Of a DNA stretch of 64,000 nt, positions 16,911 to 60,412 are shown one piece after another. The DNA is from Peptoniphilus catoniae. GTDB lineage: Bacteria > Bacillota > Clostridia > Tissierellales > Peptoniphilaceae. Position numbers and translations under genes: made by a program. The stretch lies in contig NZ_LR588416.1 of NCBI RefSeq assembly GCF_901447155.2, positions 62,001 through 126,000 of the forward strand. The letters are read 5' to 3'. The notes under the pieces were generated by a model. That model was not told the DNA's origin. It was given only the letters and a program-made list of their open reading frames with translations, and did no database searches. Numbering within the stretch: the first letter of the stretch is position 1; each line of letters starts with the position of its first letter.

Positions 16911-16996
16911 ATATAAGCGGAAGCGATAAAGCATCAATTTCGTTAAAGGGCTACTTCCCATCCCTTTACACTTACGCACTTTACCTACTCTATATC
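16911..16996 (-). promoter_or_regulatory. Probable tetrahydrofolate (THF) riboswitch upstream of folE
   Basis: On the minus strand the leader contains, in order, AGAGTAGG, GCGTAAGTGT, GGGATGGGA, ACGAA and GCTTTATCGCTTCCGCT. This matches the order and spacing of conserved THF riboswitch elements (GAGUAG, GUUAAGUG, GGGAUG, ACGAA, AUCCGCU). Helices are possible: GTAAAG with CTTTAT, AAAGGG with CCCTTT, and closing AU pairs. A downstream hairpin (CCATTATC / GATAATGG, about 16873-16893) could act in expression control. THF binding would be expected to lower folE-HD-folBK expression. Class assigned by eye. Confidence 0.72.
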
Positions 16997-47984: not shown

Positions 47985-50900
47985 TTACTTCCTAAAGTAG
48001 TTTACGGCACCCTTAAATATATTTTGCAATTCTACATCATAGATATTTTTATAAAGGTCCTTTGCAACTCTCTCAGAGTGTCCCATTTTACCAAGAATCT
48101 TTCCGTCCTCTGATATAATGCCTTCAATATTATATTCTGATCCGTTTGGTGAAACCTTATAAACTGCCGCAACCTGTTCCTTATCTAAAAGATCCTTTAG
48201 GACTTTTTCATCTACAACAAATCTTCCTTCCCCATGAGATATTGGCAACCTATAAATTTTTTCCTCTGACAATTCACTTAACCAAGGTGAGTTTACAGTA
48301 AGAACTCTTGTATCAACAAACCTTGCTATATGTCTTTTTGCTCCATTAAGAATAAGAGTCGGTGAGTTTTCACTTAGCTCCTTAATTTCACCATAGGGTA
48401 GAAGTCCTGACTTAACTAAAGCTTGGAAGCCGTTACATATACCTATAATTAAACCGTCATTTTCATTTAAAAGTTTATTAATGGCAGCTGCTACCTTCTC
48501 TGATCTTAATACATTGGCTATAAACTTACCTGAACCGTCAGGTTCATCTCCTAAAGAGAAACCTCCCGGCAATGCCAATATTTGAGATTTTTCTATAAGA
48601 GCCGCCAATTCATCAAGGGACTTAACTATATCCTCATGGCTTTGATTTTTAAATACATAAATTTCAGCCTCTGCCCCTTGTTCCTCAAAGGCCTTCGCAG
48701 TATCCCATTCGCAGTTGGTTCCCGGAAATACAGGTATTACAACCTTAGGTCTATCTACAGGCTTGTAGGATTTCATTCTTCTCTTTTTATTCTTTTTGTT
48801 TTCTATGCCCGGATCTTTTTCTTCCTTATAAGGTTTAAACACGTCATCAAGGCTATGAAGATAATTTTCCTTTAATTCCCTTTCGTCAAGCTCAATGCCA
48901 TTTACTCTTATGCCTTCCTTAAAGCTTCCGATTTCTTTTATAAAGTCCCTGTCCTCTTTATATTCAACTACAAAGCTTCCGTATTTAGGACTGTAAAGAT
49001 CTTCAAGCTCAATATCAAAGCCTGTATTTCCAAGTGCTTGTTCATAAATTTGAACAAGAGTTGATTTGGTAACAGCAAAGGCGGAGATTACATTTTTATC
49101 TTTAATCTCTTTATTTAACCTTTCCATCTTTTCCTTCAGGTCTTTTAAATCAAGCATACCCTTGGAATTAATTTTACTTTCAATTAATCCAAGTTTGCCT
49201 TTTCCCTTAAGATCTTGTGAAACTATATTTTCAATGTCAGCTGTTGTTACTGCAAAAGAAACAAGAGTCGGTGGAACGTGAATGTCTTCAAAGCTTCCAC
49301 TCATAGAGTCCTTTCCTCCTATTGGAGGTGCTTCAAAGAACTTCGATGCTTCAAAGGCACCTAAAAGTGATTTAAGAGGTTTTGACCAAACTTCCTGAGA
49401 ATCCATTTTTTGATAAAATTCCTGGAAGGACAAACGTATTTTATCAAGAGATGCTCCTGTTGCAACAAGCTTTGCAATAGACTCTATAACTGCATAATAG
49501 CCTCCAAGATATTGAGATTCTTCACTTAAGTATGGATTAAATCCATAGGACATTAAAGAAACTGTTTTAGTATCTCCCTTTAAGCTTGGAATTTTTGCAA
49601 CCATTGCTTGAGTAGGATTGTATTGTTGATTTCCTCCAAGAGGATTTAATACTGTTGCTCTACCTACAGTTGTATCAAAAATTTCGTAAAGATTCCTTTT
49701 GGAAGTGTTATTTAAATCCTTAAGGTATTTTGCTAAATTTTTAGGATCCTTATCTGAATTATTAAGAACCTTGGCTACATCTTCAGATGTAACCTTTACC
49801 TTTTCTTTTCTATCTGCTCCGTTGGTGTTAATAAAATCGTAGGACAAGTCGCAAATTAGTTGATCTTCATAGTACATAAGCATTTTGTTATTATCTGTAA
49901 CATTTGCAACTATTCTAAGCTCAAGATTCTCTTCAAGAGCATATTTTTCAAATTCCTTATAGTCGTTCTTATCTATTACTATTGCCATTCTTTCTTGAGA
50001 TTCTGAAATTGCAATTTCCCTCGGCTTAAGTCCTGCATACTTTAAAAGCACCTTGTCAAGATAAATTTCAACTCCATCGTGCAATTCTCCTATGGCAACT
50101 GAAACTCCACCTGCTCCAAAGTCATTACACTTTTTAATCATTTTGGCAACCTTTGGATTTCTGAAAAGTCTTTGAATTTTTCTTTCTTCAGGGGCATTTC
50201 CCTTTTGTACCTGTGCAGACTCAGTAACTATTGAACTTACAGTATGGGTCTTTGAAGATCCTGTAGCTCCGCCTATTCCGTCTCTACCTGTTCTGCCTCC
50301 TAGAAGCACAACTATATCTCCGGGAGTCGGTTCAATTCTTCTTACGTTTTCTTCAGGTGCCGCTGCTATTACAGCTCCTGCTTCCATTCTTTTTGCCACA
50401 TAACCCGGGTGATAAATTTCATCTACATAACCTGTTGTAAGTCCTATTTGATTACCGTAGGATGAGTATCCCTTAGCTGCTTCCGTTGTTATTTTTCTTT
50501 GAGGAAGCTTGCCCTTTAATGTGTCCTTTATAGGTGTTTTAGGATCTGCCGATCCAGTTATTCTCATTGCCTGATATACATAGGATCTGCCGCTTAGAGG
50601 GTCTCTTATTGCTCCTCCAAGACAAGTGCTGGCTCCTCCTAGTGGTTCTATTTCAGTTGGATGGTTGTGAGTTTCGTTTTTAAACATTAATAGGTAGTCT
50701 TCAAGTTCTTCTTTGCCGTCTTTGTCAACTCTTACTTTTATCCTTACTGAGCAGGCATTGATTTCAGAGCTTATTTCTAAATCTTCAAGTTTGCCTTTTT
50801 CCCTTAGATACTTTGCTAAAATAGTGCCGAAGCTCATTAGAGATATAGGCTTTTTAATATTAAGCTCTTTTCTCATTTCAAGATAATTGTCGAAGCTTTC

Positions 50901-52886
50901 CTTAATCATTTTGTCAAGCTCAGTCAAAGGGTTAAAGTCTATGTTAAGCTCCGTATTAAAGGTTGTATGCCTACAGTGATCTGACCAGTAGGTATCAAGT
51001 ATAGCAATTTCAGTTTCGTTAGGATCTCTATTTTCGGATTTAAAATAATCTCTTACCATTAAGGCGTCTTCAAAACTCATTGCTAAAGATTGTTTATCAA
51101 TAAAATCTCTTAATTCTTTGTCATTGTAGTCGATAAAACCTTCATATACCAGATTCTCCCTGTTAACACTTTTTGTTGATGAAAGTGTTGTAGGTACATT
51201 AAGAATTGGAACTCTGTGGGAGTCTACGGGGTTTATAATGTAATTTTCTATTTTCTCAAGGTCTTCTTCCTTTACTCCCTTAAAATCATAAACTGTACTG
51301 TAAGAAACCTTTATATCCTCGTCTACAACTAAGGAGATAGTATCAAGTAAGCCTTGCTCTCTTTGGCTGAATTGACCCGGTAAATAAGCTGATGCTATAG
51401 GATTTTCAAGCTCCTTTTGAAGCTTAAGAGCATCTTCTCCTATATAAATATCATCTACCGGCCTTTCTGAAAGAATGGTGTATTTTATCTTGTCTATTAC
51501 CTCTTCGCTTGTTTCTATGTCGTATCTCTTGTATAGCTTTACAGAATCTAAATCTATACCTAGAGATGATTTTATTTCTTCAGTTAAGCCCTTAGATTCA
51601 AAATCAAATTCATCCTTCTTACATACATAGACTCTTTTTACTCCGGGGCCTATGTCCTTTCTATAATACATTCCGTCAAAATGTACTTTTTTAGCATCTT
51701 CATAAACCTGTTTAATCGCTTCATCAAAGGTATCGGCACTATAAACAAGATTAAGGACTCTACCTCCATCAGTAACAAGCTTTCCGTCTTTTAAGGCTGT
51801 CCCTGCATGATATATTTTTGATTTAATACCATCATCAAAGCTTATTTTCTTGCCCTTTTCATAGGATCCCGGATATCCTCCGGAAGCAAGTACAAGACAA
51901 AGAGTTTTCTTCTTGTTTAGCTTTAATTCTACTTCTGATAGTCTTGCTTCAGAGGTTGCTTGTAAAAGCTCCAACAAATCATTTTCTATATTTTCAAGGA
52001 TAACTTGAGTTTCAGGGTCTCCGAATCTTACATTAAATTCAAGAACGTCTATGTCCTTATCCCCTATCATCAATCCTATAAAAAGAGTACCTCTATAGTC
52101 TATTCCTTCACTTTTTAAGCCCTGAAGAACGGGATCTAAAATTTCTTTTCTTATTCTTTCAAGGAAGGGTTCAGCTTCTATATTAGGTGAGAAGGTTCCC
52201 ATACCACCGGTGTTTGGACCAAGTTCACCTGTAAAAATTTTCTTGTGGTCTCTTGAGGTAGGTAGGGCCAAAATTGTTTTTGAATCAGTAAGACTTATTA
52301 AGGACATTTCAAATCCACTTAAAAATTCCTCTATAACAACCTTGTCACAGTTAAATTTATTTTTATTTAATACTTCATCTAAAAAGTCCCTTGCTTCTTC
52401 AAAATCAGATGTAATAAATACACCCTTTCCTGCAGCAAGTCCGTCAGCTTTTATAACAGTTCTTCCCTTTTCATTAAGAAGTTTTTCAGCAAAATCAACC
52501 GCTTCCTTAAAATCTTTTGTCTCAATATAATCAGCTGTAGGAATCTTATATTTTTTAAGAAATCTTTTAGTAAAAGCCTTACTATTTTCAAATTCCGCAG
52601 CTTCTTTATTAGGTCCATAAATCTTTAGACCTTCATTTTGAAATTTATCAACTATACCACTGCAAAGAGCCGCTTCAGGTCCTACAACTGTATAGTCAAT
52701 TTTTTCTTCCTTTGCAAACTTGAGCAAGGAGTCTATGTTCTCGGCAGATATTCCTGTATCCTTGCCAAGCTTACCTGTTCCTCCATTACCTGGAGCAAAA
52801 TATAGTTGTCTTGTTGAGTCTTTTTCAAGAAGTTTAGTTCCTAAAGCGTACTCTCTACCTCCCGAACCTACTATTAATATTTTCAT
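47985..52886 (-). CDS. purDL: PurD-PurL fusion: GAR synthetase + FGAM synthase
   Basis: A single 1633-aa ORF. Residues 1 to about 414 are PurD (MKILIVGSGGREYAL, ATP-grasp ADGLAAGKGVF, EFNVRFGDPETQ, ending YYRKDIGPG). Residues about 416-1633 are a clostridial-type long PurL, with YWSDHCRHTTF, NETHNHPTEIEP, GGKDSMSG and a class I glutaminase domain from about 1378 (GICNGFQAL nucleophile, SHGEGRF). The junction (about 51644) has no stop and no usable start codon. Steps 2 and 4 of purine synthesis are thus physically joined. Last gene of purF-M-N-H-DL. Confidence 0.93.
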   Translation of the reverse strand: MKILIVGSGGREYALGTKLLEKDSTRQLYFAPGNGGTGKLGKDTGISAENIDSLLKFAKEEKIDYTVVGPEAALCSGIVDKFQNEGLKIYGPNKEAAEFENSKAFTKRFLKKYKIPTADYIETKDFKEAVDFAEKLLNEKGRTVIKADGLAAGKGVFITSDFEEARDFLDEVLNKNKFNCDKVVIEEFLSGFEMSLISLTDSKTILALPTSRDHKKIFTGELGPNTGGMGTFSPNIEAEPFLERIRKEILDPVLQGLKSEGIDYRGTLFIGLMIGDKDIDVLEFNVRFGDPETQVILENIENDLLELLQATSEARLSEVELKLNKKKTLCLVLASGGYPGSYEKGKKISFDDGIKSKIYHAGTALKDGKLVTDGGRVLNLVYSADTFDEAIKQVYEDAKKVHFDGMYYRKDIGPGVKRVYVCKKDEFDFESKGLTEEIKSSLGIDLDSVKLYKRYDIETSEEVIDKIKYTILSERPVDDIYIGEDALKLQKELENPIASAYLPGQFSQREQGLLDTISLVVDEDIKVSYSTVYDFKGVKEEDLEKIENYIINPVDSHRVPILNVPTTLSSTKSVNRENLVYEGFIDYNDKELRDFIDKQSLAMSFEDALMVRDYFKSENRDPNETEIAILDTYWSDHCRHTTFNTELNIDFNPLTELDKMIKESFDNYLEMRKELNIKKPISLMSFGTILAKYLREKGKLEDLEISSEINACSVRIKVRVDKDGKEELEDYLLMFKNETHNHPTEIEPLGGASTCLGGAIRDPLSGRSYVYQAMRITGSADPKTPIKDTLKGKLPQRKITTEAAKGYSSYGNQIGLTTGYVDEIYHPGYVAKRMEAGAVIAAAPEENVRRIEPTPGDIVVLLGGRTGRDGIGGATGSSKTHTVSSIVTESAQVQKGNAPEERKIQRLFRNPKVAKMIKKCNDFGAGGVSVAIGELHDGVEIYLDKVLLKYAGLKPREIAISESQERMAIVIDKNDYKEFEKYALEENLELRIVANVTDNNKMLMYYEDQLICDLSYDFINTNGADRKEKVKVTSEDVAKVLNNSDKDPKNLAKYLKDLNNTSKRNLYEIFDTTVGRATVLNPLGGNQQYNPTQAMVAKIPSLKGDTKTVSLMSYGFNPYLSEESQYLGGYYAVIESIAKLVATGASLDKIRLSFQEFYQKMDSQEVWSKPLKSLLGAFEASKFFEAPPIGGKDSMSGSFEDIHVPPTLVSFAVTTADIENIVSQDLKGKGKLGLIESKINSKGMLDLKDLKEKMERLNKEIKDKNVISAFAVTKSTLVQIYEQALGNTGFDIELEDLYSPKYGSFVVEYKEDRDFIKEIGSFKEGIRVNGIELDERELKENYLHSLDDVFKPYKEEKDPGIENKKNKKRRMKSYKPVDRPKVVIPVFPGTNCEWDTAKAFEEQGAEAEIYVFKNQSHEDIVKSLDELAALIEKSQILALPGGFSLGDEPDGSGKFIANVLRSEKVAAAINKLLNENDGLIIGICNGFQALVKSGLLPYGEIKELSENSPTLILNGAKRHIARFVDTRVLTVNSPWLSELSEEKIYRLPISHGEGRFVVDEKVLKDLLDKEQVAAVYKVSPNGSEYNIEGIISEDGKILGKMGHSERVAKDLYKNIYDVELQNIFKGAVNYFRK

Positions 52887-52894
52887 GGCTCCTC

Positions 52895-54397
52895 CTAATG
52901 TTTAAAATGCCTATTTTTACTAAATACCATTGAAATGCCAAGCTCATTGCATTTCTTAATGGAATCTTCGTCTCTTAATGAACCTCCCGGTTGAATTATG
53001 GAAGTAAGTCCCATTTGTCCTGCAAGCTTTACACAATCGTCAAAGGGGAAGAAAGCATCTGATGCCAAAACTCCTCCGTCAAAGCTCTTGTCGTAGTGAT
53101 TTTTAATATTTTCAAGAGCCCAAATCCTTGAGGTTTCTCCTCCTCCTATTCCTATAGTTGTCTTATCCTTAACTACAACTACAGCATTGGACTTAACGTG
53201 TTTTACTACCTTCATTGCAAATTTTAAATCCTCAGTTTCCTTTTCTGTAGGAAGCTTATTAGTTACGGGACTAAATTCATCTTCAGCCTGATCTTTTTCT
53301 TGACAGAGAACAGCTCCGTTTAAGTATTTAATATCCATGTCAGCTTTTTTAAGGTCAAAATCTACCTTAACAAGTCTGATGTTTTTCTTCTTTGTTAAAA
53401 TTTCAAGAGCTCCCTTTGTAAAATCTTTTGCAGCTATAATTTCAAGAAAAATCTTTGAGCACTCTTCTGCAAGTTTCTCGTCAACTTCTCCATTTAAAGC
53501 AAGGATTCCTCCAAAAATTGAAAGGCTGTCAGCCTCATAGGCTTTAAGATAGGAATCTAAAAGATTATCCTGTTTTGATACTGCACAGGGTGTGGCATGT
53601 TTTAAGGCTACCGCCGTATTTTTTCCAAGCTCTGCTGCAAGTTCCACAGCTACATTAAGGTCGTTGTAATTATTAAAGGACATTTTTTTGCCATGGATAA
53701 TCTCAGGATTTGACAAGTAGGAATTAATAAATTTGTCCTTATATAATGCTGCCTTTTGTGTTGGGTTTTCTCCATATCTTAAGTCTTCAGCTTTTTCAAA
53801 GCCTAAATTCAAGTAGCCTGTTTCTTTACCGGTTTCTTCTTTAAAGTACCTGGCTATAAGTGAATCATAATATGAAGTAAGGCTGAAAGCTTTTGTAGCA
53901 AGCTCTGCTCTGAAGCTTTCATCTACACTATCAGTTTTTAATTTTTCTATAAGTCTTTCATAATCGCAAACATCGGTTACTACTAAAACATCCTTGTAAT
54001 TTTTAGCCGCAGCTCTTATAAGGGTGGGGCCTCCTATATCTATGTTTTCTATTATTTTAGCCTTGTCTTTAGTTTCCAATGCTCCAGAAAAATCGTAAAG
54101 ATTTACTACAACTATGTCTATAGGAGAAATTTTTTCGTTTTTTATGGTTTCCACATCTTGAGGATTGTCCCTTCTGTATAAAATTCCTCCATGGATATAG
54201 GGGGATAAGGTTTTTACCCTACCTCCTAAGATTTCTTTAAAGTTTGTAACGTTCTCTACAGATACAGCTTCAACTCCGGCCTCTTTAATGGCTTTTAGGG
54301 TGCCTCCTGTAGATATTATTTCGCAACCTAAATCAGATAGGCCTTTAACTAAGAATTTTAAATTAGATTTGTCTGTTACAGAAATTAAGGCTCTCAA
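52895..54397 (-). CDS. purH: Bifunctional AICAR transformylase / IMP cyclohydrolase
   Basis: Last two steps of IMP synthesis, 500 aa. The N-terminal MGS-like cyclohydrolase domain (about 1-190) shows ALISVTDKSNL, STGGT and GGRVKTLSPYIHGGIL. The transformylase domain has LRYGENPTQKA and ALKHATPCAV; it uses 10-formyl-tetrahydrofolate. The ATG overlaps the purN stop by four bases (ATGA), and purDL starts eight bases after its stop. Confidence 0.96.
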   Translation of the reverse strand: MRALISVTDKSNLKFLVKGLSDLGCEIISTGGTLKAIKEAGVEAVSVENVTNFKEILGGRVKTLSPYIHGGILYRRDNPQDVETIKNEKISPIDIVVVNLYDFSGALETKDKAKIIENIDIGGPTLIRAAAKNYKDVLVVTDVCDYERLIEKLKTDSVDESFRAELATKAFSLTSYYDSLIARYFKEETGKETGYLNLGFEKAEDLRYGENPTQKAALYKDKFINSYLSNPEIIHGKKMSFNNYNDLNVAVELAAELGKNTAVALKHATPCAVSKQDNLLDSYLKAYEADSLSIFGGILALNGEVDEKLAEECSKIFLEIIAAKDFTKGALEILTKKKNIRLVKVDFDLKKADMDIKYLNGAVLCQEKDQAEDEFSPVTNKLPTEKETEDLKFAMKVVKHVKSNAVVVVKDKTTIGIGGGETSRIWALENIKNHYDKSFDGGVLASDAFFPFDDCVKLAGQMGLTSIIQPGGSLRDEDSIKKCNELGISMVFSKNRHFKH

Positions 54398-54948
54398 AGA
54401 TTTTCCTCCTCTATTTTTTTAATAGCATCCTTTAAGATTTTATGTTCGATTTCAAGGACCATATCCCTTATTTCATAGGGACTTTTAGCCTTACTTATAT
54501 CCACTTTCCTTTGAAGGACTATATCTCCGTCATCAAGCTTGTTATTAACGTAATGAACTGTTGCACCGGAGAGCTTTTCCTTATTTTTAAATACGGCTTC
54601 GTGAACTGCCATTCCATAAAAGCCCTTTCCACCATACTTAGGCAATAGGGAAGGATGAATATTTATAATTCTGTTTTCATAGTTATTTACTATTTCTTCC
54701 GGAACCTTCTTTAAATATCCGGCCAAAACTATAAAATCTATGCTATAATCTCTAAGTTTATCAAGAAGCTTATCGTCATCTTTTATTACAAAAGAGTCTA
54801 TATTTGCATTGTAACCATGTATTAAGCCCTTGGCGTCTCTGTCAGCTATTATAAGAGATATCTTGCTTTTAAATTCTCCTCTGTTTTCAGCATCTATAAG
54901 TGCCTTAAGATTGGTTCCCGTTCCTGAAATTAAAACAGCTATATTCAT
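54394..54948 (-). CDS. purN: Phosphoribosylglycinamide formyltransferase
   Basis: Formyl-THF-dependent GAR transformylase of 184 aa. Visible: AVLISGTGTNLKALI, catalytic IINIHPSLLP (Asn, His) and GATVHYVNNKLDDGDIVLQ (catalytic Asp). Overlaps purM and purH by four bases each. It links the operon to the folate pool made by the folE operon. Confidence 0.96.
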   Translation of the reverse strand: MNIAVLISGTGTNLKALIDAENRGEFKSKISLIIADRDAKGLIHGYNANIDSFVIKDDDKLLDKLRDYSIDFIVLAGYLKKVPEEIVNNYENRIINIHPSLLPKYGGKGFYGMAVHEAVFKNKEKLSGATVHYVNNKLDDGDIVLQRKVDISKAKSPYEIRDMVLEIEHKILKDAIKKIEEENL

Positions 54949-55985
54949 TTTATCTCCACGCTTTTATTTAGATTCTTAGAGTTTTTTACTTCACCTATTA
55001 GGTAGGCTTCATCATCAGTTGATTCCTTTATAAATTCTATAACCTTTGAGGCGTCATCCTTATCTACTATTACAATCATACCTATTCCCATGTTAAAAGC
55101 TCTATAAAGCTCTTCCTCTTCAATTTTTCCGCTTTGCTTTATAGCTGAGAAAACTTCTCCTATATCCCAGGAGTTTTTGTCTATACTTACAGCTAAACCT
55201 TGAGGAATAATTCTCGGGACATTTTCTAAAAGTCCTCCGCCTGTTATATTGGCTACTCCTTTTATATTAAACCTATCTATTAGGGCAAGGATAGTATTTA
55301 CATATAGCTTTGTAGGCTCTAATAAAACCTCTCCTAAGGTTTTTTCGCTGCCGAAAAAGCTTTCTGTAAGCTCCATTTTAAGCTCTTCAAGGAAAAGCTT
55401 TCTTGCAAGGGAATAACCGTTGGAATGCAAACCGCTTGAAGCAAGTCCTATAATAAGATCTCCCTCTTTAATTTTGCTGCCGTCTATTATTTTATCCTTG
55501 TCTACTATTCCTACGCTAAAGCCTGCCAGGTCATATTCGTCCTTTTGATACATTCCGGGAAGCTCTGCGGTTTCTCCTCCTATAATTGCAGTTCCTGTTT
55601 CCTTACAGGCCTTGGATACACCCTTTACTATTTCAGCTATTTTTTCCGGAATGATTTTATCTATTCCTATATAGTCGAGGAAAAATAAGGGTTTTGCACC
55701 TTGACAAATAAGGTCATTTACACACATTGCAACTAAATCTATGCCTACAGTATCGTGAATGTCCATTTTTTGGGCTATTAGAAGCTTTGTTCCTACACCG
55801 TCTGTAGATGCAAGTAGCACAGGCTCTTTCATATTTTTAAATTCAGAAAGCTCAAAGCCTCCGCTAAAAAGTCCTATATCTCCTAAAACGCCACTTGTTA
55901 CCGTATCCTTAACATGCTTTTTTATAAGTTCAACAGCTTTATTGCCGGAGTCTATATCTACTCCGCTATCTTTATAATTAATCAT
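54945..55985 (-). CDS. purM: Phosphoribosylformylglycinamidine cyclo-ligase (AIR synthetase)
   Basis: ATP-dependent ring closure forming AIR, 346 aa. Pattern: INYKDSGVDIDSGNKAV, STDGVGTKLLIA, GGETAELPGMY, ITGGGLLENVPRI. Located between purF and purN with tight spacing. Confidence 0.96.
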   Translation of the reverse strand: MINYKDSGVDIDSGNKAVELIKKHVKDTVTSGVLGDIGLFSGGFELSEFKNMKEPVLLASTDGVGTKLLIAQKMDIHDTVGIDLVAMCVNDLICQGAKPLFFLDYIGIDKIIPEKIAEIVKGVSKACKETGTAIIGGETAELPGMYQKDEYDLAGFSVGIVDKDKIIDGSKIKEGDLIIGLASSGLHSNGYSLARKLFLEELKMELTESFFGSEKTLGEVLLEPTKLYVNTILALIDRFNIKGVANITGGGLLENVPRIIPQGLAVSIDKNSWDIGEVFSAIKQSGKIEEEELYRAFNMGIGMIVIVDKDDASKVIEFIKESTDDEAYLIGEVKNSKNLNKSVEIK

Positions 55986-55994
55986 ATCTACTCC

Positions 55995-57341
55995 TTATAT
56001 AACAATGGGATCTACAGGATAATCTCCGTTAAAGCAAGCTTTACAAAATCTATCTTCTCTTATTAGGGTTGCCCTTTGAGCGGCTTCAGGTGAAATAAAT
56101 GCCAAAGTATCCGCATCTATCCTTTCCCTTATTTCTTCAACTGACATATTTGCAGCAATTAAGTTCTTTCTACTTGGTGTGTCAATTCCATAATAGCAGG
56201 GGTAGCATACTGGTGGTGAAGTTATCCTCATATGCACTTCCTTGGCTCCGGCTTCTCTCATTCTTTTTATAAGATTTTGTGAAGTGGTTCCTCTGACTAT
56301 GGAGTCATCTATTAATACTATCCTTTTGCCTTCTATTACGTGACGTAGAGGATTTAATTTTAATTTAACAGCCATTTCTCTCTCTTCCTGGGTTGGCTTT
56401 ATGAAGGTTCTACCCATATATCTATTTTTTACCAGTCCCGTAGCGAAAGGAATTCCGGCTTCTTGTGCATAACCTATTGCTGATGGTATTCCGCTATCAG
56501 GTACAGGTACTACTAAATCCACATCACAGGGTGCTTCAATTGAAAGGTACTCTCCGCATCTTCTTCTGTAGTTATAAGCATTTACTTTATCTAAGGTTGC
56601 ATCCTCTCTTGCAAAATAAACATATTCAAAAATGCAGTGTCTTGGCCTTTTAGCCTCGTCTGAAAAATAACTTTTTATTCCGGCTTCATCTATTTCTATA
56701 ATTTCTCCAGGAAGAACGTTTCTGATTTTTTCTATACCTATAATTTCACTTGGTGCATTTTCTGAGCATACTATTATACTGTCTTCACTTTCACCTATTG
56801 TTAAGGGTCTTATGGCTGATGGTCCTCTAAAGGCGATAAGCTTATTTTTCATAAGCAGCACTGCTGAATAAGATCCCCTAATAACCTTCATAGTTTGTTT
56901 AACGGCATCTACTATATTTCCTTTGTAGTATCTTGCTATTAAATATAGTATTACTTCAGTATCAATGGAGGTTTGAAACATAACTCCTTCTTCTTCAAGC
57001 CTTGTTCTTAAAATTTGATGATTTACAAGAGCCCCGTCATAAGCAAGAGCAAATTCATTGCCCTTGGCAAATCCCATTAAAGGCTCAGTATTATAATCGT
57101 GAGATCCTGCAGCACCTGAATATCTTACATGGCCTATTCCTATATTGCCGCTTAATTTCTTAATCATGTTCTCATTAAACACATCTATTACAAGACCTTC
57201 TCCTCTTTCACGATTAAGGTTTTCTCCATCTGATACAACCATACCGCAAGCTTCCTGACCTCTGTGTTGTAAAGAGTTAAGTCCGAAGAATAACTTTGTA
57301 CTTACAGAAGAGTTGGAATAAATACCTATAACTCCGCTCAT
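55995..57341 (-). CDS. purF: PurF-like amidophosphoribosyltransferase with altered glutaminase site
   Basis: First committed purine step: PRPP to phosphoribosylamine. With the ATG at 57341 (AAGGGA upstream; another ATG at 57347), the protein begins MSGVIGIYS, so after Met removal the first residue is Ser where PurF has the catalytic Cys1. Other pocket motifs differ: AYDGALVN replaces AHNGNLVN (oxyanion-hole Asn to Asp) and HVRYSGAAG replaces RYxTxG. The PRTase domain is intact (VLIDDSIVRGTTS), and the Fe-S-type cysteines are kept (RHCIF, VCYPC, FCKACF). It may depend on free ammonia, or use Ser as nucleophile. First gene of the operon. Confidence 0.9.
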   Translation of the reverse strand: MSGVIGIYSNSSVSTKLFFGLNSLQHRGQEACGMVVSDGENLNRERGEGLVIDVFNENMIKKLSGNIGIGHVRYSGAAGSHDYNTEPLMGFAKGNEFALAYDGALVNHQILRTRLEEEGVMFQTSIDTEVILYLIARYYKGNIVDAVKQTMKVIRGSYSAVLLMKNKLIAFRGPSAIRPLTIGESEDSIIVCSENAPSEIIGIEKIRNVLPGEIIEIDEAGIKSYFSDEAKRPRHCIFEYVYFAREDATLDKVNAYNYRRRCGEYLSIEAPCDVDLVVPVPDSGIPSAIGYAQEAGIPFATGLVKNRYMGRTFIKPTQEEREMAVKLKLNPLRHVIEGKRIVLIDDSIVRGTTSQNLIKRMREAGAKEVHMRITSPPVCYPCYYGIDTPSRKNLIAANMSVEEIRERIDADTLAFISPEAAQRATLIREDRFCKACFNGDYPVDPIVI

Positions 57342-57379
57342 TAGCATCCCTTCCCGTTCAATTAAATTAAATAGTCTTC

Positions 57380-59146: not shown

Positions 59147-60412
59147 TTAATACCAACCTCTAAGTTTCATAGCTTGGTCTATAGATCTTATTGCATACAT
59201 ATAAACAGCTTCTCTTAAGGTTACCTTGTATTCATCAGCTACTCCGAATACTCCTTCAATAGCCTTCATCATGTCTGCTTCTTGTTTTTCTTCTACTTCA
59301 GATTCAGTCCAGTAGTATCCATATTGGTTTTGAACCCATTCGTAATAAGATACAAGAACTCCACCTGAGTTAGTTAAAATATCAGGAGTTAAATTAATAC
59401 CCTTCTTTGCAAGAGCTTCGTCGCCTTGAGGAGTTGTAGGTCCGTTTGCAGCTTCACATACAAGCTTAACATTAAGCTTTTCTGCTTTTTCTGCTGTAAT
59501 AACATTTTCAAGTGCTGCGGGTACTAAAATATCATATTCTTTAGTCCAGAATTCTTCATCTGTAATCTTTTCTGCTCCTGGGAATCCTAGAAGAGTTTTG
59601 TGTTCTTGCTTGTAAGCTAGAAGTTCTTTAAAGTCTATTCCATTTTCATTGTATAGAGCATAGTTTCCTTCTTTTTTATCCCATTCAGCTATAGCACAAA
59701 CTTTTCCACCTTGTCTGCAAATGTTCTTAACCGTAAATGATCCTACGTTACCGAACCCTTGTACAGCTATTTTTGCAGTTTTAATGTCAAGACCGAATCT
59801 CTTTGCTGCTTCTCTTACTACTATAGAAACTCCGAATCCTGTAGCTTCGTTTCTTCCTTCAGATCCGCCGAATGCTACCGGTTTTCCTGTGAAAGTACCT
59901 ATATCCATTCTGTCGCCGTTTAGTTTGGTATATTCGTCAACGAACCAGCTCATTATTTGGCCGTTAGTTCCAACATCTGGTGCAGGAATATCAATTCTTT
60001 CACCAAGATATTTATAAAGACCTCTTACATAACCTCTGCAAAGTTGCTCAAGCTCTCTATCAGAAAGTTCTGAAGGATCTACAGCGATACCGCCCTTACC
60101 TCCACCATAAGGAAGGCCAAGTGCTCCGCCTTTAAAAGTCATCCAAAGTGAAAGTGCTTTTACTTCATCCATGTTTACTGCAGGGTGAAAACGAACGCCG
60201 CCCTTTGCAGGACCAACTGCATCAGAGTGAGCTGATCTCCAACCTTTAAAAGTCTTTAAAGTTCCATCATCCATTTTTACAGGGATAGTAATTTCTATAA
60301 CCCTTTTAGGTTCTTTTAAAAGTTCGTAAACTGCAGGATCTGCTCCTAATTTTTCACAAGCACTTTTTACCTTTTCTTGTGCCGCTACTAGTGGATTTAA
60401 AGTATCTGTCAT
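59147..60412 (-). CDS. gdhA: Glutamate dehydrogenase
   Basis: Oxidises glutamate to 2-oxoglutarate and ammonia (or the reverse), 421 aa, hexameric S_50II-type length. Visible: GPAKGGVRFHP, catalytic lysine region GLPYGGGKGGIAVDP, IPAPDVGTN and the Rossmann motif VQGFGNVGS. No strong indicator of NADP preference was judged by eye. SD AAGGAG. In 2-hydroxyglutarate-pathway fermenters it supplies 2-oxoglutarate. The Mn2+ riboswitch and decarboxylase genes lie immediately downstream. Confidence 0.95.
   Translation of the reverse strand: MTDTLNPLVAAQEKVKSACEKLGADPAVYELLKEPKRVIEITIPVKMDDGTLKTFKGWRSAHSDAVGPAKGGVRFHPAVNMDEVKALSLWMTFKGGALGLPYGGGKGGIAVDPSELSDRELEQLCRGYVRGLYKYLGERIDIPAPDVGTNGQIMSWFVDEYTKLNGDRMDIGTFTGKPVAFGGSEGRNEATGFGVSIVVREAAKRFGLDIKTAKIAVQGFGNVGSFTVKNICRQGGKVCAIAEWDKKEGNYALYNENGIDFKELLAYKQEHKTLLGFPGAEKITDEEFWTKEYDILVPAALENVITAEKAEKLNVKLVCEAANGPTTPQGDEALAKKGINLTPDILTNSGGVLVSYYEWVQNQYGYYWTESEVEEKQEADMMKAIEGVFGVADEYKVTLREAVYMYAIRSIDQAMKLRGWY

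Follow-up and report, generated by a model that had tools for sequence, protein, structure and literature searches.

The purF gene in the window, by which we mean the whole 64,000-nucleotide stretch of Peptoniphilus catoniae contig NZ_LR588416.1 analysed here, encodes an amidophosphoribosyltransferase that lacks the N-terminal nucleophile Cys1. PurF is a classic example of a glutamine amidotransferase with an ammonia channel. Judged from its sequence and those of its relatives, the present protein is very probably a functional PurF that no longer hydrolyses glutamine and would form phosphoribosylamine (PRA) from PRPP and free ammonia, with its N-terminal domain kept in a non-catalytic state. 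The gene and the residues on which this reading turns are located as follows.

55995..57341, minus strand: purF, Cys1-less amidophosphoribosyltransferase, 448 aa from ATG-AGC (TIGR01134 473.5 bits, cut-off 350; 1ao0 E 1.8e-124)
57336..57338, minus strand: Ser codon AGC in the place of nucleophile Cys1 (sequence and alignment)
57105..57125, minus strand: RYSGAAG, glutamine loop altered by Gly in the place of Thr76 (alignment)
57036..57038, minus strand: GAC, Asp in the place of oxyanion Asn101, within YDGA (alignment)
56400..56429, minus strand: KNRYMGRTFI, flexible and ammonia-channel loop of the PRTase domain, kept (alignment)
56283..56318, minus strand: VLIDDSIVRGTT, PRPP-binding motif, kept (alignment)

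The frame at complement(55995..57341) opens with ATG AGC GGA (Met-Ser-Gly). Its product was aligned with that of E. coli K-12 purF, and residue numbers given here are those of the mature E. coli enzyme. In this alignment Cys1 is replaced by Ser, Thr76 by Gly, Asn101 by Asp and Asn103 by Ala. The first-pass annotation had read Ser in the place of Cys1, YDGA for HNGN and RYSGAAG for RYxTxG, and had called for an E. coli alignment; all three readings were confirmed by translation and by that alignment. A second in-frame ATG is located at 57347, two codons upstream of 57341, and would give MLMSG. An AAGGG, read by eye, lies 6 nt 5′ of the ATG in ATG-AGC, which makes 57341 the likelier start. The open frame upstream of purF (LKLSVRGTNKGSLFFIGRLFNLIEREGMLM) contains no Cys, so that an earlier in-frame start cannot yield a processed N-terminal Cys, and a wrongly chosen start hiding such a residue, which had been named as a possible objection, was ruled out. 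A sequencing error at Ser1 was likewise rejected, since the remaining three genomes of the same GTDB genus share the Cys1-less state, as do many other genomes.

Arg26, Arg73, Gly102 and Asp127 were retained in the same alignment, and because they remain, the protein may still bind glutamine to some residual extent. The PRPP motif VLIDDSIVRGTTS is present together with the flexible loop and the catalytic PRTase residues, and the Fe-S-type cysteines are C238, C384, C435 and C438, counted from the upstream Met, a set that we take to be of the B. subtilis PurF type. The earlier statement that the PRPP motif and four such cysteines remain therefore held. Domain matches were PF13537/PF13522 and PF00156, the match to the equivalog model TIGR01134 was full length and above its cut-off, and the best solved relative was the amidotransferase of entry 1ao0, presumably B. 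subtilis PurF. The window protein thus resembles the PurF of TIGR01134 (E. coli, B. subtilis) in its full-length homology, PRTase site, channel loop, Fe-S cysteines and purine operon, but differs from it by the absence of Cys1, Thr76 and Asn101, from which glutamine hydrolysis would not be expected. The intact oxyanion Asn and glutamine-binding loop of a Ser-nucleophile Ntn glutaminase are absent as well. We class the window protein as a PurF homologue of a new kind rather than a glutamine-dependent amidotransferase. Because it scores above the TIGR01134 cut-off, automated pipelines would label it a glutamine-dependent amidophosphoribosyltransferase, and the nitrogen donor for purines is probably wrong in metabolic models of these anaerobes.

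The first-pass annotation had treated this PurF as a single odd protein, which proved too narrow. Our survey covered 80 loci of the species-level genome collection, together with 130 genomes from the GTDB family and 249 from the order. Rows dropped before counting were L172 and L192 (contig ends), L187 (a stop interrupts purF), L191 and L193-L201 (PurF of a distant type), 11 near-duplicate outgroup loci, and the species-level loci L003-L022, L024, L028, L029 and L031-L034 (presumed duplicates of G genomes). L187 and L190, from genomes G118 and G120, carry a Cys1-start purF whose frame is broken or contains internal stops. In the aligned set of 189 PurFs, 91 have Cys1 and 98 lack it, the latter recurring across the order, and residue 1 of the 98 is Ser in 84 and Gly, Ala or absent in 14. 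The survey of residue 1 in related genomes that had been proposed gave a similar picture for the family: 10 of its 130 genomes are without PurF, 10 have only the distant type, 3 have a cut or split gene, and Cys1 is absent from 66 of the 107 canonical PurFs. Among the 32 GTDB genera with a canonical PurF, 20 are entirely Cys1-less, 9 entirely of the Cys1 type and 3 mixed. Among the species-level loci, Peptacetobacter hominis (L063) and a Filifactor MAG (L030) supplied two further Cys1-less PurFs. In all 98 Cys1-less cases, purF is accompanied by 3–5 other pur genes.

A second purF, for which a search had been suggested earlier, was not found in the window's genome, and this candidate was rejected. 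At E ≤ 1e-40, a single PurF was present in 66/66 Cys1-less genomes of the family and, among the matches listed, in 29 of the 30 Cys1-less order genomes fetched from outside it. The exception, genome G221 (L221, L239), carries both a Cys1 PurF and a Ser1/Asp101 PurF. For wider samples, a PurF match that starts after HMM position 1 was used as a proxy for the Cys1-less state. This proxy is valid, because in the order outside the family 30/30 fetched late-starting matches lacked Cys1 (30 of 32 among the matches listed, with G195 and G197 left out) and 10/10 fetched matches starting at position 1 had it. By this proxy, and by hand counts that exclude partial matches and were checked against tallies, 98 of 103 near-full, over-cut-off matches start at the Cys position in a class sample outside the order (138 genomes), where G316 is the only genome whose sole PurF copy is without a Cys start. 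The corresponding figure in a phylum sample outside the class (139 genomes) is 131/135, the exceptions by HMM start alone being G415, G492, G456 and G507.

The PurF glutamine site has been lost repeatedly and independently among these relatives. On trees of the 189-row set, unrooted parsimony gave 13 changes in Cys1 state for the concatenated operon, 11 for the PurF PRTase domain and 14 for the operon without PurF (180 rows). When regain was forbidden, on trees rooted on two Desulfoluna loci (an earlier six-locus outgroup was not one clade), the operon, PRTase-domain and PurF-free-operon trees required 20, 21 and 21 losses, and 18, 13 and 18 after branches with support below 0.9 were collapsed. 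A smaller purF-free operon tree of 36 of the 180 rows, in which six rows have only 24% of columns and the outgroup is not one clade, gave 9 changes, of which at least 8 are forced by the starred branches. Of the four genomes in the window's genus, three were included in this 36-row tree, where they group as a supported Cys1-less clade within relatives that have Cys1. Horizontal replacement of the operon could lie behind some of the changes, for example in two Cys1-less members of genus g37 that have a different operon layout. The repeated loss of the site looks like a recurring shift in the nitrogen source for purines.

Leu415 and Tyr329 of PurF line its ammonia channel. Across the 98 Cys1-less PurFs, Tyr258, Arg261, Asp263, Asn327, Tyr329, Arg332, Phe334, Arg342, Lys349, Asp366, Asp367, Ser368, Arg371 and Thr374 are invariant, and we found Ile335 in 97, Gly372 in 97, Leu415 in 95, Thr333 in 91 (7 Ser), Thr373 in 86 and Lys326 in 81 (17 Arg). 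According to PMC7953260, the contacts of a PRPP analogue include Arg342, Lys349, Arg371, Thr333 and Phe334, and one wall of the ammonia channel is made of Tyr74 and Ile335. The glutaminase-side Tyr74 is retained in only 66/98. The glutamine site itself is decaying: at least one further loss among Arg73, Thr76, Asn101 and Asp127 was detected in 97/98 Cys1-less proteins versus 14/91 with Cys1, and the variety of letters in the Cys1-less proteins reaches 16 at position 76, seven at 73 and eight at 127. All four Fe-S cysteines are present in 65/98 Cys1-less versus 85/91 Cys1 PurFs, at least one being missing in 33/98 versus 6/91.

These counts bear on the two options that the first-pass annotation had offered, namely use of free ammonia and a Ser-nucleophile variant. 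In the latter, Ser1 would serve as the nucleophile of an Ntn domain that still hydrolyses glutamine, and Asp101 would have acquired an oxyanion or base function. Ser is indeed by far the commonest replacement (84/98), accompanied by Asp101 in 82 of the 84, and Arg73 and Asp127 are retained in the window protein. The E. coli C1S enzyme, however, is described in PMC3261824 as having no activity with glutamine, Asn101 and Thr76 are gone from the window PurF, and 14/98 proteins, in sister lineages, have Gly1, Ala1 or no residue 1; the glutaminase domain is moreover shortened in 24/98, and all four of Arg73, Thr76, Asn101 and Asp127 are lost in 24/98. We therefore regard a Ser nucleophile as very unlikely. 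The free-ammonia option is well supported by the loss of the glutaminase residues, the retention of the PRTase site and channel loop, and the behaviour of the E. coli mutants. As reported in PMC3261824, which cites Mei and Zalkin (1989), E. coli PurF with C1A or C1S has no glutamine activity and still uses ammonia. These mutants resemble a first step toward the window PurF in that the glutamine site is disabled and the NH3 activity kept; they differ from it in being single, non-natural changes without Asp101.

Although catalytically dead by its residues, the glutaminase domain is under strong purifying selection. Its median dN/dS was 0.073 over 25 disjoint Cys1-less pairs (maximum 0.211) versus 0.053 over 22 intact pairs (Mann–Whitney p 0.08, which neither establishes nor refutes relaxed selection on the dead domain), and dN/dS indicated strong purifying selection on both domains of the Cys1-less PurF. 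Ordinary neutral decay was rejected by these low values and by QHRG and Gly102, which are invariant in 98/98. The dead domain is also predicted to fold: a model of the window PurF had a mean pLDDT of 86.8 and that of the intact relative L005 88.3, with an identical order of structural elements, an agreement that is partly built in because both models were made from the same 48 sequences. The same data speak to whether PurF might be a decaying or regulatory relic, with PRA supplied by another enzyme. Such a relic would accord with the broken purF of two relatives having a Cys1-type gene, and with exceptions hinted under some conditions to the purine requirement of Salmonella without PurF (PMC3485032). 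It is hardly credible, given that the listed PRPP-site residues are invariant in 98/98, that selection acts on both domains, and that the operon is present with no second PurF in 95 of 96 Cys1-less genomes, among the matches listed.

For a working enzyme that uses free ammonia, the following route can be proposed. Ammonia, which should be plentiful in an amino-acid fermenter, would enter via the dead glutaminase pocket and then reach the intact PRTase site through the channel between the domains. The former glutaminase domain would be retained as a structural cap and ammonia entrance that serves folding, loop closure and channel formation. Since the E. coli C1A and C1S enzymes keep their NH3 activity, hydrolysis would be dispensable where ammonia is plentiful, but the channel-shaping domain would not. 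We infer that ammonia is the nitrogen donor of the window PurF in vivo; its entry through the dead pocket, and any role of Asp101, are likewise put forward as proposals.

Residue 101 in the 98 Cys1-less PurFs is Asp in 86, Asn in 9, Ser in 2 and Glu in 1. Asp101 occurs in 86 of the 90 that possess a residue 1 and in 0/8 of those whose frame starts past it, these 8 being one clade. It also stands alongside Cys1 in twelve PurFs, so that it may precede the loss of Cys1; L063, L124 and L215 have lost Cys1 and keep Asn101, and Asp101 is thus not needed everywhere. Asp is the commonest ordinary partner of Asn, accounting for 28% of 2574 sister-pair differences, which makes the convergence on Asp101 suggestive but not proof. 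A tentative and rather doubtful extension of the ammonia route is that the pocket was rebuilt as an ammonium port, in which Ser1 (or Gly1 or Ala1) and Asp101 would attract and deprotonate NH4+ at the channel mouth. A role of this kind would account for the repeated origin of Asp101, in some lineages apparently before Cys1 loss, and for its persistence once the other glutamine-site residues had disappeared. Alternatively, Asp101 may merely pair with the freed N-terminal amine.

The window purine operon lies on the minus strand, where purF is followed by purM, purN, purH and a fused purD-purL; the names purM, purN and purH are putative, given by resemblance to the known genes. These genes and a nearby dehydrogenase are listed below.

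54945..55985, minus strand: purM, next in the purine operon (translation, and gene order conserved in relatives)
54394..54948, minus strand: purN (translation, and gene order conserved in relatives)
52895..54397, minus strand: purH (translation, and gene order conserved in relatives)
47985..52886, minus strand: purD-purL fusion with intact class I glutaminase motif GICNG (translation and domain search)
59147..60412, minus strand: glutamate dehydrogenase, possible ammonia source (PF00208 E 1.3e-69)

The purD-purL fusion is in frame and encodes one 1633-aa protein, and the same fusion is suggested in many relatives by adjoining PurD and PurL matches. The glutamate dehydrogenase invoked in the first-pass annotation corresponds to the gene at 59147..60412, which belongs to the glutamate/leucine dehydrogenase family and is read as glutamate dehydrogenase; its position near the purine operon is in line with a presumed amino-acid fermenter. 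With the PF13522 model, the only other class II amidotransferase domain in the window's genome was that of GlmS, which has an intact MCGIVGY start. The class I Cys is kept in PurL (GICNG) and in the GuaA-like (GLCYG) and PyrG-like (GICYG) proteins, the latter two, so assigned by length and motif, being the only PF00117 matches. Within this genome, nucleophile loss is therefore specific to PurF as judged by sequence motifs, since GlmS, PurL and the GuaA-like and PyrG-like proteins keep their Cys. A glutamine synthetase-like frame of 718 aa is present too, and together with the intact glutamine-dependent enzymes it means that glutamine shortage is not an obvious driver. The same inventory makes it improbable that PurF receives its ammonia from a separate glutaminase protein, in the way that PurQ serves PurL. 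A conserved dead domain could dock such a partner, but with the two models used, PF13522 and PF00117, the class II domains found were only those of PurF and GlmS and the PF00117 proteins were only GuaA- and PyrG-like, and purM, purN, purH and purDL directly follow purF with no extra subunit in the operon.

GlmS served as a control. Its HMM position 1 is Cys in the window's genome, and by the HMM-start proxy 87/87 full-length, over-cut-off GlmS proteins of the family start at position 1, versus 66/107 PurFs without Cys1. This search used the glmS model, a strict DNA pattern having matched 41 of the 130 genomes; 39/130 gave no match and 4 only partial or split ones. Full-length GlmS was detected in 33/66 family genomes with a Cys1-less PurF versus 38/41 with Cys1. 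GlmS, where present, thus keeps its nucleophile, and it is more often missing where PurF is dead. This deficit may reflect a wider retreat from glutamine use rather than a change in PurF only, or could be due to shared ancestry alone. In the mixed genus g4, GlmS-like frames of 380 and 387 aa in G040 (C8:46867-47976) and G042 (C23:32023-33114) match positions 236-605 and 238-605 of 607 and are without the glutaminase domain.

By analogy, the Cys1-less PurF is best read as a purine counterpart of human CPS1. The class I amidotransferase fold of CPS1 is unrelated to that of PurF. In human and tetrapod CPS1, Ser294 replaces the catalytic Cys within a retained glutaminase-like domain and glutamine is unusable, according to PMC4655335, and PMC7657897 presents frog and one fish CPS as intermediate stages. 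Replacement of the catalytic Cys with retention of the domain was also found for the window PurF by alignment, dN/dS and modelling, and CPS1, as these two sources describe it, is an ammonia-only enzyme. The two differ in that CPS1 is a class I amidotransferase of another pathway, the window protein having PF13537/PF13522 and PF00156 in place of class I amidotransferase and CPS domains, and in that the old tunnel of CPS1 is reported as blocked, unlike the PurF channel, which is conserved on its PRTase side. In the open literature we found no report of a Cys1-less PurF as the only copy, and the sole earlier notice found was Mlab_0150 of Methanocorpusculum labreanum, a PurF-like protein in which Ser takes the place of the active-site Cys and which its authors suspected not to be a PurF (PMC3261824). 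Mlab_0150 is described there as having arisen by recent duplication next to an intact PurF, whereas the Ser form of the window is the only copy. The 98 natural nucleophile-less PurFs, mixed with close relatives that keep Cys1, offer a test of roles of the glutaminase domain besides hydrolysis, of the entry of external ammonia into the channel, and of whether an ammonia-rich niche relaxes the dependence on glutamine.

The distant PurF type (L191, L193-L201; e.g., L198:6242-7663) has a start like MG[GA]YFG or FFG, the motif SHLGT and no Cys1, and the L198 protein scored 156.9 bits, under the TIGR01134 cut-off. It sits in the pur operons of four genera, where no other PurF-like match was found at E ≤ 1e-40 in the genomes concerned, and matches about as strong occur as a second or only copy in the class sample. 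It may be another ammonia-using PurF. Elsewhere in the window, a THF riboswitch (RF01831, 48.4 bits) is located at 16912-16994 on the minus strand; no other Rfam hit in the window reaches the gathering threshold.
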